Shown here piece by piece: positions 37,936-43,203 of a DNA stretch of 64,000 nt. Under the pieces are notes generated by a model, which saw only the letters and a list, made by a program, of their open reading frames with translations, had not been told where the DNA came from and made no database searches. Position 1 is the first letter of the stretch. Every line of letters starts with the position of its first letter. This DNA is from Actinomycetota bacterium (GTDB lineage: Bacteria; Actinomycetota; Coriobacteriia; Anaerosomatales; UBA912). Location of the stretch: NCBI GenBank assembly GCA_018334075.1, contig JAGXSC010000053.1, positions 1 to 64,000 on the forward strand, written 5' to 3'. Made by a program: the position numbers and the translations under genes.

Positions 37936-39054
37936 ATGGCATCCTTTCACATAAGCGACCCGTCACTCACGCCCATCGCGTCCAAGGTAATCGCCGGCGA
38001 ACGGCTCTCCCTTGAAGACGGAGTCGCGCTTTACGCATCGAATGACCTGCTCGGCATAGGACAGATGGCCGATCACGTACGGCGCAAGATAAACGGCGAC
38101 AAAGTCTATTTCATGGTCAACCGCCACATAAACCCGACGAACATCTGCCGGAACCGGTGCAAGTTCTGCGCATTCGCACGAGACGCCGGCGAGCCCGGCG
38201 CGTACGAGATGACGCTGGATGCTGTCGTCAAGGCCGCCGAGGAGGGCGCGTCGGAAGGCGCGTACGAGGTGCATATCGTAAGCGGACTGCACCCCGAGTG
38301 GAGCTACGATTTTTACGTCGACATGGTGCGCAGGGTGCGGGCCGCGGTTCCTCGGCATGTAATCGTCCAGGCTTTCACCGCGGTCGAGATCGAGCATATG
38401 GCGATCATCAGCGGAAAAAGCACGCTTGAAGTGCTAAAAGAGCTCAAGGCCGCCGGGCTTGACGCGCTTCCAGGAGGCGGCGCCGAGATATTCAGCGAAC
38501 GCACCCGGGCGAGCGCATGGGAGAAGAAAACCCCGGGCGAGGTGTGGCTGCGCATACATGGTGAAGCCCACTCGGCAGGTATCGCGACAAACTGCACCAT
38601 GCTCTACGGCCACATCGAGACGCACGAAGAGCGCGTGGATCACCTCATACGCTTGCGGGAGCAGCAAGACAAGAGCGGCGGATTCCTCGCGTTCATCCCC
38701 CTGGCGTTCCATCCCGCGAACACCCAGCTCGAAGAGTTGCCCGGCACGACAGGATTCGATGACCTGAAAACGCTGGCCATCGCGCGGCTCATGCTCGACA
38801 ACATCCCGCATATCAAGGCCTTCTGGATCATGGTCGGCCTGAAGGTGGCGCAGTTGTCGACCGCGTTTGGCGTGGACGACATCGATGGCACCGTCGTGGA
38901 GGAGAAGATCACCCACATGGCGGGCGCCACAACTCCGGAAAAGCTCACAAAAAGCCAGCTCATCTCGATGATCCGGGAAACCGGACACACCCCTGTCGAG
39001 CGGGACACGCTGTACAATGTCGTAGCGGTGCATGACAATCCCGCGCGGACGTAG
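37936..39054 (+). CDS. mqnE: Aminofutalosine synthase MqnE
   Basis: Radical SAM enzyme that joins the MqnA product (3-enolpyruvyl-benzoate) to SAM, giving 6-amino-6-deoxyfutalosine. About 372 residues from the ATG at 37936, behind CAAGGAG. The radical SAM cluster motif is NICRNRCKFCAFARD (CxxxCxxC), with HIVSGLHPEWSYDFY, PGGGAEIF and FIPLAFHPANTQL characteristic of the MqnE/MqnC family. First gene of a tightly packed five-gene menaquinone operon. Confidence 0.95.
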   Translation: MASFHISDPSLTPIASKVIAGERLSLEDGVALYASNDLLGIGQMADHVRRKINGDKVYFMVNRHINPTNICRNRCKFCAFARDAGEPGAYEMTLDAVVKAAEEGASEGAYEVHIVSGLHPEWSYDFYVDMVRRVRAAVPRHVIVQAFTAVEIEHMAIISGKSTLEVLKELKAAGLDALPGGGAEIFSERTRASAWEKKTPGEVWLRIHGEAHSAGIATNCTMLYGHIETHEERVDHLIRLREQQDKSGGFLAFIPLAFHPANTQLEELPGTTGFDDLKTLAIARLMLDNIPHIKAFWIMVGLKVAQLSTAFGVDDIDGTVVEEKITHMAGATTPEKLTKSQLISMIRETGHTPVERDTLYNVVAVHDNPART

Positions 39055-39066
39055 AGGAATCACGGT

Positions 39067-39897
39067 ATGAGGCGTCCCCGGCTCGGCCACATCCGGTTCA
39101 TCAACTGCATGCCGCTTTATTACGGCATGGAGAAACGCGAGGCCCTGCTCGACATCGATCTTGTCGAAGCGAACCCCGCGGAGCTCGCCCGGGAGCTTCT
39201 CGCCGGTGCCCTGGACATCGCGCCGATACCGGCCATCGAGTACGCTCGCCATGCCGGCGAGTTCGTGCTGCTCCCAGATATCGCGATCTCCTCATGCGGC
39301 GAAGTCCAGTCGATCCTGCTGCTCTCCAAGGCGCCCGCCGAGGAGCTCTCCGGCCGCACGGTCGCTCTCGCTGACACTTCACGCACCTCGCAGGTGCTGA
39401 CGCGCGTGCTGCTCGAGCGACGCTTCGGTGTCACCTGCACGTACGCCGAGATGCCGCCGGACCCGGCTGCGATGCTTTGCGAGTGCGACGCCGCGCTGCT
39501 CATCGGCGACGAAGCGCTGAAGGCTTACTGGAGCCCCCCCGATGGCGTGCGCGTTTACGACCTCGGCGAGGAGTGGACGGCCTGGACCGGCCTGCCGATG
39601 GTGTATGCGGTCTGGGCGGTCCGCCGCTCCTTCGCCGAGCAAAACGCCGAGGCCGCCGCGGCGGTCGCCTCGGCGCTGAATGACTCCCTCGCCTGGTGCA
39701 GGCGCCACCTCGATGAGATATCCGGGCACGCGGCGATGCGCGAGCAGCTCGACGCCGGGAGGCTGCGAAGCTACTTCGACGCGCTTCACTTCCGCTTCGA
39801 GCCGAATTACCGGGAAGGACTTGTGCGCTACCTGTCCGAGGCTGTCGCCATCGGCCAGCTGGAGAGGGTCCCCGTCATCGAGGTTCTCGGCGAATGA
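39067..39897 (+). CDS. mqnA: Chorismate dehydratase MqnA
   Basis: Dehydrates chorismate to 3-[(1-carboxyvinyl)oxy]benzoate, entering the futalosine route. The 276-residue protein has the periplasmic-binding-like fold of the family, with GHIRFINCMPLYYGME at the start, ANPAELARELLAGALDIAPIPAIEYARH, ISSCGEVQSILLLSK, and LLIGDEALKAYW with the conserved Asp. It starts 12 bases after mqnE and overlaps mqnC by four bases. Confidence 0.94.
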   Translation: MRRPRLGHIRFINCMPLYYGMEKREALLDIDLVEANPAELARELLAGALDIAPIPAIEYARHAGEFVLLPDIAISSCGEVQSILLLSKAPAEELSGRTVALADTSRTSQVLTRVLLERRFGVTCTYAEMPPDPAAMLCECDAALLIGDEALKAYWSPPDGVRVYDLGEEWTAWTGLPMVYAVWAVRRSFAEQNAEAAAAVASALNDSLAWCRRHLDEISGHAAMREQLDAGRLRSYFDALHFRFEPNYREGLVRYLSEAVAIGQLERVPVIEVLGE

Positions 39898-41018
39898 GGA
39901 CTTCCGCTGACTCCGGATTGCCGGCCATCGCACTAGCCGCCGCGCGAGGGCAGCATCGCCTTACCTCGCAGCAAGCGCTCGACCTGCTGGAACACGCCGA
40001 CATCCTCCTTCTGGGAGCAGCGGCGACCGCGATGCGCGACCGGCTGCACCCCAAGCGCGAAGTCACCTTCATTGTGGATCGCAACGTCAACTACACCAAC
40101 GTTTGCGTCAGCAAATGCAGGTTTTGCGCTTTCTACTGCGGTGTCGACGACGCGTCCGCATACATACTTCCCGCCGAGAAGCTGTACGCCAAGGTCGAGG
40201 AAACGATCGCCCTGGGCGGAACGGCCATCCTGCTTCAGGGAGGGCTTCACCCGGATCTTGGGATCGAGTGGTACGAGCAGATGCTTGCCGATCTCAAGGC
40301 ACGCTACGCAATCCATGTGCACGGCTTTGGTCCGCCCGAGATCGCGCATATCGCGGCGGTATCGGGTATTGCGACTCACGAGGTCCTGCGTCGACTGCGG
40401 GATTCCGGCCTCGACTCGCTGCCTGGAGGAGGAGCGGAGATCCTTGTCGACCGAGTCCGCTCTCTGGTGTCTCCGGGCAAGGCCACCGCCACCGAATGGC
40501 TGAATGTCATGCGGGAAGCACACGATCTCGGTCTTTCCACGACCGCAACCATGATGTTCGGAGGCTTGGAGACGACCGAGGAACGCATCGAGCACATGGC
40601 GCGCATCCGTGAGGTGCAAGACGAGGCCGTTGCCGCGGGACGCATCGGCTTTCGGGCGTTCATCCCGTGGAGCTTCCAACCCGGAAACACCGAACTGGCG
40701 AGCGAGGCAAAGGCCTGCGGAGGTCACATCTCTGCCGCCAGCGGCTGGGACTACCTGCGCGCACTCGCGGTATCACGGCTTTTTCTTGATAATGTAACCA
40801 ACGTCCAGGCATCATGGGTGACACAAGGGGCCAAGATCGGCCAGGTCGCGCTATTTTTTGGAGCGAACGACATGGGCTCGACTATGATCGAGGAAAATGT
40901 TGTCGCCTCGGCAGGCACGCGATTCATGCTCGCCCGCGAAGAGCTGGTGCGCCTGATCGAGAACGCGGGATTTACGCCTGTGCAACGTGACACCCTTTAT
41001 AGAGAGGTCTTGCGCTGA
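39894..41018 (+). CDS. mqnC: Dehypoxanthine futalosine cyclase MqnC
   Basis: Radical SAM enzyme cyclising dehypoxanthine futalosine (DHFL) to cyclic DHFL. 374 residues with the cluster motif NVCVSKCRFCAFYCG, the family segments ILLQGGLHPDLGIEWYE and PGGGAEILVDRVR, and FIPWSFQPGNTEL. It overlaps mqnA at the start (ATGA) and the next gene by one base. Its substrate must be supplied by an enzyme that removes hypoxanthine from futalosine; no MqnB homologue is in the operon, but an MTAP-family gene follows. Confidence 0.95.
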   Translation: MRTSADSGLPAIALAAARGQHRLTSQQALDLLEHADILLLGAAATAMRDRLHPKREVTFIVDRNVNYTNVCVSKCRFCAFYCGVDDASAYILPAEKLYAKVEETIALGGTAILLQGGLHPDLGIEWYEQMLADLKARYAIHVHGFGPPEIAHIAAVSGIATHEVLRRLRDSGLDSLPGGGAEILVDRVRSLVSPGKATATEWLNVMREAHDLGLSTTATMMFGGLETTEERIEHMARIREVQDEAVAAGRIGFRAFIPWSFQPGNTELASEAKACGGHISAASGWDYLRALAVSRLFLDNVTNVQASWVTQGAKIGQVALFFGANDMGSTMIEENVVASAGTRFMLAREELVRLIENAGFTPVQRDTLYREVLR

Positions 41019-41902
41019 TGGAACGAATTGCCGAGGTACCCCTGGCCGAATTCGGCATCTGCGGTGGATCAGGCTCGCTTAGCTTCGACTTTCCCGCAGC
41101 CCTGGCGGACGAAAGGGTAACCGTTATCGACGACGATCTGACCTTCGAGACGCCGTTCGGGAACTCTCCCACCTTCACTTACTTCGAGGTAGACGGGCTT
41201 TTCGGATCCCGACGCGCCCTCGCGGTCAAAATGCACGGATGGCGACGCGGGGTGACGCGCGCTGCCGCATCGCTTCAGACTTTCTGGGTCTTTCACGAGG
41301 CGGGCGTGAAAAAGGTGCTCGCCGATGGCGGTGTGGGCTCCCTCAATCACCTGCTGGATCCCCGCGATATCGTCATTCCAAACGACTTCATAGACCTGAC
41401 CATGAAGCAGGACATCTATATCCGAGGCGATCATCTTCTCATAATGCGCGATCCGATCTGCCCTGCCCTTGCCGCCCGCCTTTACAAGGGGGCCTATTCC
41501 GCGTTCGACCGAGTTTTCCCGCGAGGGATCTACCTGGTGACCGACGGTCCCCGGTTCGAGTCCGTCGCCGAGACAAAGTACATGCGCGATATGGGCGGAG
41601 ATGTCGTGGGGCAATCGCTCTCTCCGGAAGTCTTCCTCGCTCGCGATATCGGCGCCTGTTTCGCGGGCATCTACATCGTGGTGAACTACGGCGAGGGCGT
41701 GGTCCGCGCCTGGGAGCACGACGAGCTCAAGGCCGTTTTCTTCGAGGAATCGGCGACCATCGCCGCGATTGTGGTGGACACCGTCGCCGAGACCGACCTC
41801 GCATCGCCATGCGGTTGCGGCGAACTACGAAAGCCCTCGCTTCTGAGCATCCCGGACGAGCGGCCGGAACACGAGCGGCCAGGCCTCAAGGACCCGGCGT
41901 GA
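41018..41902 (+). CDS. MTAP/PNP-family nucleosidase, candidate futalosine base-removing enzyme
   Basis: A 294-residue member of the methylthioadenosine/purine nucleoside phosphorylase (type I trimeric) family: FGICGGSGSL, VGSLNHLLDPRDIVIPNDFIDLT, DGPRFESVAETKYMRDMGGDVVGQS. By my manual alignment to human MTAP, key residues differ. The phosphate-contact RHG is MHG (Met72), the TTA before the GSL motif is DGG, and the base-binding pair Asp-x-Asp is N223-Y-G225. An Asn here is what 6-oxopurine-specific PNPs use, which suits hypoxanthine in futalosine. Its position between mqnC and mqnX strongly suggests it replaces MqnB. The C-terminal 30 residues are a Cys/Pro-rich tail (SPCGCGELRKP). Confidence 0.75.
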   Translation: MERIAEVPLAEFGICGGSGSLSFDFPAALADERVTVIDDDLTFETPFGNSPTFTYFEVDGLFGSRRALAVKMHGWRRGVTRAAASLQTFWVFHEAGVKKVLADGGVGSLNHLLDPRDIVIPNDFIDLTMKQDIYIRGDHLLIMRDPICPALAARLYKGAYSAFDRVFPRGIYLVTDGPRFESVAETKYMRDMGGDVVGQSLSPEVFLARDIGACFAGIYIVVNYGEGVVRAWEHDELKAVFFEESATIAAIVVDTVAETDLASPCGCGELRKPSLLSIPDERPEHERPGLKDPA

Positions 41903-43203
41903 GCACTCTCGTCACAGGCAAGTGGGTGCTTCCAATCGCCTCGGAGCCCATCCGCAACGGCGCGGTCCTAATCGACGGCGTGCGCATCGCAGAAGTCGGC
42001 CTCGCCGAAGAGCTGCTGGCGCGCCACCCCGAAGCCAAACGCTACGAGTTCGAGGACGCCACTGTCCTGCCCGGACTGGTGAACGCACACACGCACCTCG
42101 CAATGACATGCCTGAAAGGGCTTATCCCTCCGCAACCCTTCCCCGAGTGGCTAAGCAAGGTCCCAAAAGCGTTCGGCGCGCTGACCGAGGACGACATTGT
42201 CGCCTCCATCTCGCTCGGCGCAATCCACTCGCTTTGCGCCGGAACCACTGTTGTTGGTGACATCGCCTACGGACCGGAGTCTCTGGCGATCTGCGCTGAT
42301 ATGGGGCTTGGCGGCACCTTCTTCTGGGAAGTCTTTGGCATCACCGCCGATATGCTCGAATCCAGACTCGCCGAGATGGAGTTCCCGCTTGAGATCGCTC
42401 GCAATTTCGAGGGTCGCTTCGAGGCCGGCATCTCGCCTCACTCGCCCTACACCTCCGGACCCGATCTCATCAAAGCCGCCCACACCCTGGCAATCGCCGA
42501 GAAAAGCGAGTACGCCATCCACGTCGCCGAGTCGCCGGCAGAAACCGAGCTGCTTGCGAGCGGAAAAGGGGCCCTGGCGCCTGTCGCCGACCAGTTCGTG
42601 CCCAATTTCAGGCCACCTGGAACAACGACTGTCGGCTACCTCGATCGGCTCGGCGCGCTCGACGGCGCTGCCGCGATCCACTGCGTGAACGTCACCTCGG
42701 CCGACACAGCAGCGCTTGCCGCGAAAGCTCGTGGTGTCGTCTTGTGCCCGCGCTCCAACGCCTACCTGCACACCGGCATAGCTCCCGCACGTAAGCTGCA
42801 CAAAGCCGGTGTCACGCTGGCGCTTGGCACAGACTCCCTGGGCAGCAATTATGATCTTGACCTTTTTGAGGAGGCAAGGGCGCTGGCGTCGATCGCCCCG
42901 AACATCAGCGCACAAGATATCGTCGGGATGATCACTTACGGTGGCGCGAAGGTGCTAGGGCTTTCCGACCGATTCGGCGTGCTCTCCCCCGGAATGCAGG
43001 CTGATCTGGCGATTTTCCGTGTAGATGGCGACGACCCTTACGATTCGCTGCTGGCGAAAGCGGGGCTGGATGCCATCGAAGCCGTTATGAGCGCAGGCAT
43101 TTGGCGAGTCATGCAGGGCAAATCCTTGCTCGCGCCCACGCAGATCGCGCAGCGATCAAACCTGGCATCGAAGCGCGCGGCGGCGGCCCTGATGCTCTCC
43201 TGA
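41899..43203 (+). CDS. mqnX: Aminodeoxyfutalosine deaminase MqnX
   Basis: Amidohydrolase-family deaminase converting aminofutalosine to futalosine. About 434 residues from the GTG at 41899, which overlaps the stop of the preceding gene (GTGA); the longer in-frame ORF upstream is inside that gene. Metal-site motifs are present: LVNAHTHLAMTCLKG, ISPHSPYT, HVAES, HCVNVTSADT and LALGTDSLGSN. SAH/MTA deaminases are close relatives, but the operon context points to MqnX. Its presence means the pathway here goes through futalosine. Confidence 0.88.
   Translation: MSTLVTGKWVLPIASEPIRNGAVLIDGVRIAEVGLAEELLARHPEAKRYEFEDATVLPGLVNAHTHLAMTCLKGLIPPQPFPEWLSKVPKAFGALTEDDIVASISLGAIHSLCAGTTVVGDIAYGPESLAICADMGLGGTFFWEVFGITADMLESRLAEMEFPLEIARNFEGRFEAGISPHSPYTSGPDLIKAAHTLAIAEKSEYAIHVAESPAETELLASGKGALAPVADQFVPNFRPPGTTTVGYLDRLGALDGAAAIHCVNVTSADTAALAAKARGVVLCPRSNAYLHTGIAPARKLHKAGVTLALGTDSLGSNYDLDLFEEARALASIAPNISAQDIVGMITYGGAKVLGLSDRFGVLSPGMQADLAIFRVDGDDPYDSLLAKAGLDAIEAVMSAGIWRVMQGKSLLAPTQIAQRSNLASKRAAAALMLS

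Follow-up and report, generated by a model that had tools for sequence, protein, structure and literature searches.

A PNP/MTAP-fold protein of the MqnZ family that may replace the MqnB–MqnD module of the futalosine pathway in Actinomycetota

The mqnE-A-C-Z-X operon

The window analyzed here is a stretch of 64,000 nucleotides from an uncultured Actinomycetota bacterium. It contains five mqn-type genes, mqnE, mqnA, mqnC, mqnZ and an mqnX-like gene, which form a single densely packed operon (Table 1). The mqnZ open reading frame is real and encodes 294 amino acids; its start overlaps the stop codon of mqnC and its stop overlaps the GTG start of the mqnX-like gene. An earlier note on this DNA had read the operon as encoding MqnE, MqnA, MqnC and a deaminase, with a relative of MTAP and PNP between mqnC and mqnX. 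The NCBIfam and Pfam matches agree with the former, with the reservation that the top NCBIfam match of the deaminase, the PRK08418 aminofutalosine deaminase family, lies under its cut-off, and the open reading frame and the PF01048 and NCBIfam scores bear out the latter.

Table 1. Genes and active-site codons of the mqnZ locus, and a gene found near mqnZ in relatives
Feature	Position	Strand	Evidence or remark
mqnE, aminofutalosine synthase	37936..39054	+	TIGR03700 513.6 bits, above cut-off
mqnA, chorismate dehydratase	39067..39897	+	PF02621 4.4e-74; the genome's single PF02621
mqnC, cyclic dehypoxanthinyl futalosine synthase	39894..41018	+	TIGR03699 469 bits, above cut-off
mqnZ-type gene, PNP/MTAP-fold protein	41018..41902	+	PF01048 1.7e-30; AF2 model; 34-sequence alignment
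M72-H73-G74 codons	41231..41239	+	phosphate-site Arg of MTAP RHG replaced
D103-G104-G105 codons	41324..41332	+	phosphate loop, MTAP T92-T93-A94, now acidic
E181 codon	41558..41560	+	equivalent of PNP base-binding Glu (human Glu201); 34/34
N223 codon	41684..41686	+	equivalent of PNP base-binding Asn (human Asn243), at MTAP D220 position; 34/34
mqnX-like amidohydrolase, probable aminofutalosine deaminase	41899..43203	+	PF01979 1.1e-47; conserved beside mqnZ
NDH-2-like gene near mqnZ	L009:6293-7642, L012:6699-7970, L013:120-1418, L045:8322-9581		

Family assignment and fold

With 106.6 bits against a Pfam gathering score of 25.1, the MqnZ protein is a member of PF01048. Its best NCBIfam match is TIGR01694 (MTAP), but at 107.8 bits the score is far under the cut-off of 274.85, and the protein is thus a relative of MTAP rather than an MTAP. 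AlphaFold2 predicts an MTAP fold for it (pLDDT 82). Among PDB structures, Foldseek ranks MTAPs from archaea and human highest and also retrieves the methylthioinosine phosphorylase (MTIP) of P. aeruginosa with hypoxanthine (3ozb). MqnZ is located on the MTAP/PNP branch of PF01048.

The MTA phosphorylases (TIGR01694; human 1cb0, archaeal 1v4n and 2a8y) share with MqnZ the fold, the overall alignment, the C-terminal CxC, the GGSG of the first loop and the His of RHG. They differ in the active site, where R60 of human MTAP is M or L in MqnZ, T92 is D or E, T93 is G or A, S178 is E, M196 is Q, and D220/D222 are N and G or A. The futalosine hydrolase MqnB (TIGR03664) belongs to the same superfamily and carries out the reaction expected of MqnZ, the release of hypoxanthine from futalosine, whereas MqnZ has no TIGR03664 match at E≤1 and lies on the MTAP/PNP branch. 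MTIP and PNP resemble MqnZ in the 6-oxopurine base and the PNP Glu/Asn pair but, unlike MqnZ, they are phosphorylases with an intact phosphate site and are found outside mqn operons. The fold of MqnD (PF02621) is unrelated to that of MqnZ, being MqnA-like and of the periplasmic-binding-protein type, and MqnD cleaves a C–C bond, not a glycoside.

The name mqnZ was given to a PF01048 gene that is co-localized with mqnC/mqnE or mqnEAC in Firmicutes (Megamonas, Selenomonas, Pelotomaculum and Syntrophomonas) and was proposed to substitute for MqnD, since mqnD is missing there (Ravcheev & Thiele 2016, PMC4746308). That paper does not mention mqnB and gives neither residues nor a mechanism for mqnZ. 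The gene context makes it likely that the family in the window is the same (e.g. MHY_27640), as it is co-localized with mqnE-A-C and occurs only in genomes without mqnD. The family is therefore not wholly new: it was predicted before but is uncharacterized. Our literature search found no later biochemical work on mqnZ, and a search on the MqnD product returned nothing relevant. Compared with the Firmicutes report, the Actinomycetota data add the absence of MqnB, the exchange with an mqnD-mqnB module, the pocket for 6-oxopurines and the loss of the phosphate site.

A PNP-like base pocket and a degraded phosphate site

Residues were assigned by alignment to solved MTAPs, to the PNP and MTAP of the same genome and to 34 MqnZ homologs. 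In all 34, the adenine-binding Asp-x-Asp of MTAP and its phosphate Arg/Thr set are lost, with His and Ser retained. Position 72, the Arg of RHG in MTAP, is Met in 28 sequences and Leu in six, next to invariant H73 and G74. The phosphate loop has changed from TTA to (D/E)-(G/A)-G throughout, with Asp (13) or Glu (21) at position 103 and an invariant G105. On the base side, D220-Y-D222 of human MTAP has become N223-Y-G225, and E181 aligns with the F-E-T of the genome's own PNP; MTAP carries Ser and Asp at the positions of E181 and N223. The earlier note had called three of these changes correctly, namely Met72 for the phosphate Arg, DGG for the Thr-rich loop and Asn-Tyr-Gly, with its PNP-like Asn, for Asp-x-Asp. 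Comparison with the solved MTAPs and the homologs (M/L at 72, D/E at 103 and N223, each in 34/34) upholds them. It had overlooked E181, likewise present in 34/34, which adds the Glu of PNP to the Asn.

E181 and N223 together make up the pair with which PNP reads 6-oxopurines, and hence futalosine suits the pocket better than aminofutalosine. The E/N pair also occurs in MTIP-like relatives from this phylum (L041-L043), in which both RHG and the Ser/Thr loop are intact. The broken phosphate site is therefore peculiar to the mqnZ family, and 6-oxopurine specificity is predicted to be common to the two groups. Judging by its residues, the former phosphate site of MqnZ is unlikely to hold phosphate. 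Nevertheless, of the phosphate ligands of human MTAP (T18, R60, H61, T93, A94 and T197), MqnZ retains counterparts in Ser18, His73 and Ser200, which leaves room for some phosphate binding. Furthermore, invariant R76 or R81 could stand in for the lost phosphate Arg. The other invariant residues of the family are W75, R76, R81, R144, Q199, E226 and W232, some of which may hold the carboxylate group of the benzoate.

MqnB and MqnD are both missing from the genome

The genome that contains the window (1.89 Mb, 99.68% complete) has no match to MqnB (TIGR03664) at E≤1 anywhere, the window gene included, so the mqnB elsewhere in the genome that the earlier note had named as part of a case against its reading was not found. 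Neither does the genome contain an MTAN-like gene, which would be expected to score with TIGR03664 as the E. coli control does. Its three real PF01048 proteins are MqnZ, a classical PNP with a TN-AA-GG loop (TNVAAG), whose gene clusters with those for MtnA and an S-adenosylhomocysteine-hydrolase-like protein, and an MTAP-like protein that carries RHG and TDHD. As for MqnD, the genome has no second PF02621 protein, the sole one being MqnA. What stands of the earlier reading is a 6-oxopurine (futalosine) enzyme with a degraded phosphate site where MqnB is missing; as a replacement of futalosine hydrolase alone it is too narrow, for it missed the loss of MqnD.

Co-occurrence in Actinomycetota

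Among 297 Actinomycetota genomes, PF02621 was found in 67, on which the MqnB and mqnZ-family profiles were run. The scores of the mqnZ-family profile are bimodal, with 26 genomes at 304-582 bits and the next best at ≤112 bits. None of these 26 has MqnB, and each carries a single PF02621 gene, which in G249 is split across two contigs. Three genomes were set aside: G186 and G209 have no real mqn genes, and in G005 the single PF02621 is of the MqnD type and MqnA is missing. The other 38 MqnA-bearing genomes all lack mqnZ; a second PF02621 is present in 37, confirmed as MqnD by profile score and tree for the eight to nine sampled, and MqnB over the cut-off in 20. Nine further MAGs with mqnZ, reached by another route, contain one PF02621 each, which brings the absence of MqnD to 35 of 35 genomes with mqnZ (26 + 9). 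Those single copies that were tested fall into the MqnA clade, apart from MqnD.

The naive Fisher p-values of 4e-17 for MqnD and 3e-6 for MqnB ignore relatedness, and the independent evidence amounts to two to four switches of pathway type. The MqnC tree requires four changes of type (3-5 in the bootstrap), at least two of them on well-supported branches and nearly all in the direction expected for MqnD. The co-occurrence is thus not one inherited accident. Of the two absences, that of MqnD is the closer correlate and the best predictor of MqnZ, because several lineages without MqnB (families f16/f18/f45) keep MqnD and have no mqnZ. On the comparison of operons lacking mqnB that the earlier note had proposed, all 26 mqnZ genomes are without MqnB, and some MqnB-less lineages are without mqnZ. 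One genome, G197 (L134, G197:C52:106000-121000), has MqnA and MqnC and lacks a second PF02621, MqnZ and a full-scoring MqnB (63-bit fragments), which reflects either assembly loss or another variant.

Gene neighborhoods in relatives

In families f22, f36, f53 and f7, the genes for UbiD, UbiA, UbiX, MqnE, MqnA, MqnC and MqnZ are found in one cluster, joined by MqnX in all but f7. These whole-route clusters have no further gene in common. In f10, which belongs to the same class, UbiD/A/X and E-A-C also lie together, with an adjacent mqnD-mqnB pair in place of mqnZ.

Other arrangements occur as well. In f24 (L055, L058, L061, L063 and L064) mqnZ is detached from mqnE-A-C and mostly packed against a gene for an M23-peptidase-like membrane protein, with which it overlaps in L055 and L061; the nature of this protein led us to reject it as a new MqnD. 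No dedicated mqnX was found in the f24 genomes, which contain a generic deaminase homolog. Another mqnZ genome, G002 (L060), has no COG0402-type deaminase homolog at E≤1e-40, although the 6-oxopurine residues are conserved in its MqnZ; deamination may fall to a different enzyme family there. In relatives from the same class as the window, though not in the window itself, a gene for an NDH-2-like pyridine nucleotide-disulfide oxidoreductase lies directly upstream of mqnZ (Table 1), and between mqnC and mqnZ wherever the contig includes mqnC. Its confinement to close relatives (L009, L011-L013 and L045) spoke against it as a new MqnD, and it was rejected. L045 has two more genes at this place, one glycosyltransferase-like and one for a small membrane protein. 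In L007:1118-7812 and L008:1195-7803, mqnZ-mqnX are away from mqnE-A-C and divergent from a nitrogenase-like cluster, judged by eye from NifH-like and larger subunit-like open reading frames.

MqnC and MqnA of the two pathway types

The MqnC proteins of the mqnZ type and of the MqnB/MqnD type intermix in the tree, and no column of their alignment cleanly separates the two. This argues that the substrate of MqnC is unchanged, and an MqnC retuned to the nucleoside or to a 1-phosphate was rejected on these grounds. In MqnA, Tyr19 (LPLYYG in the window) is invariant in mqnZ genomes; in MqnB/MqnD genomes the position is usually His, Trp or another residue, and Tyr in one (L076). MqnA doubling as MqnD is unpersuasive, as the single copies are of the MqnA clade and Y19 is also found in that one MqnA of the MqnB/MqnD type.

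Proposed function and alternatives

We give about even chances to the reading that the window gene belongs to the mqnZ family and that its product, a futalosine N-glycoside hydrolase with the PNP/MTAP fold, replaces the MqnB–MqnD module. Its parts differ in strength. From the residues of its pocket, MqnZ quite probably cleaves a futalosine-type nucleoside, and the state of the phosphate site favors, somewhat less firmly, hydrolysis over phosphorolysis. MqnX would deaminate the aminofutalosine made by MqnE to futalosine, the hypoxanthine of which MqnZ would grip via E181/N223. A water molecule, for which D/E103 at the old phosphate site is the likely activating base, would then cleave the N-glycosidic bond, and the resulting dehypoxanthine futalosine (DHFL) would be cyclized by MqnC.

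In pathways with MqnD, this enzyme converts cyclic DHFL to 1,4-dihydroxy-6-naphthoate and dihydroxyacetone. Since MqnZ replaces the whole mqnD-mqnB module, MqnZ or an accompanying enzyme would, with less confidence, cover this step too. MqnD is lost wherever MqnZ occurs and no linked candidate is seen, so that the step must come from MqnZ or from a partner tied to it; glycosidase activity alone leaves the loss of MqnD unexplained. That MqnZ itself performs the MqnD step is possible, but we lean against it. We know of no PNP-fold enzyme that carries out the isomerization and retro-aldol reaction of MqnD. Rather doubtful is the proposal that one PNP-fold enzyme fills both gaps by cleaving the N-glycosidic bond of futalosine and then isomerizing and retro-aldol-cleaving the sugar to give 1,4-dihydroxy-6-naphthoate. 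D/E103 and H73 would be reused as acid and base, and the substrate would be cyclic futalosine if MqnC precedes.

The fold and pocket of MqnZ suit N-glycoside cleavage only, and f16/f18/f45 have replaced MqnB alone while keeping MqnD. MqnZ might thus replace only MqnB, with the MqnD step carried out by an unrelated, unlinked enzyme. We consider this unlikely, although worth serious attention: MqnD is absent from 35 of 35 mqnZ genomes, mqnZ operons lack a second conserved gene, and a separate substitute for MqnD would have to be gained and lost in step with MqnZ. The converse, that MqnZ acts after MqnC in place of MqnD and an ordinary PNP or MTAP cleaves futalosine, is the published prediction (PMC4746308). 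It fits the anticorrelation of mqnZ, which is strongest with MqnD, and the presence of a PNP and an MTAP-like protein in the genome. However, these two keep phosphorylase motifs and would yield a 1-phosphate. An enzyme that acts only on cyclic DHFL, which has lost its base, would moreover have no use for an invariant purine pocket, unless the nucleoside is what MqnC takes. Hence, we regard it as improbable.

Loss of both genes would be explained chemically if MqnZ were a futalosine phosphorylase whose 1-phosphate product is processed by an isomerase of the MtnA type and a class II aldolase, as in the MTA DHAP shunt. MtnA is present in 26 of 26 mqnZ genomes and MqnZ retains S18, H73 and S200, but MtnA is a general salvage enzyme that is frequent in genomes without mqnZ too, and 34 of 34 homologs have lost the phosphate Arg and acquired an acidic residue. 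As the PF00596 class II aldolase is missing from eight of the 26 genomes, one of them 100% complete, this route fails as a general answer; we rejected it, and it is decidedly improbable. Both MqnE and MqnC belong to the radical-SAM enzymes, and 5'-deoxyadenosine is a product of MqnC. This, and MTAP being the nearest named family, would agree with MqnZ having an ordinary role in MTA/5'-deoxyinosine salvage, its place in the operon being incidental. Such a role is very improbable, given the lost phosphate site, the separate PNP and MTAP-like protein of the genome and the exclusive co-occurrence of mqnZ with MqnA-E-C and with the absence of MqnB and MqnD.

Significance

The futalosine route to menaquinone is widespread, and genomes that have MqnA, MqnE and MqnC without MqnB and MqnD look incomplete to annotation pipelines. 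The exchange of mqnD-mqnB for mqnZ within one class is a natural experiment on the role of MqnZ. If MqnZ closes both gaps, such genomes would be complete, and the published assignment of MqnZ as MqnD would be corrected or extended. A conversion of a phosphorylase to a hydrolase, possibly with gained C–C cleavage, would then be open to direct test. Were a single enzyme to cover both steps, MqnA-E-C-Z, without MqnB and MqnD, would add a third architecture to the two of the futalosine route.
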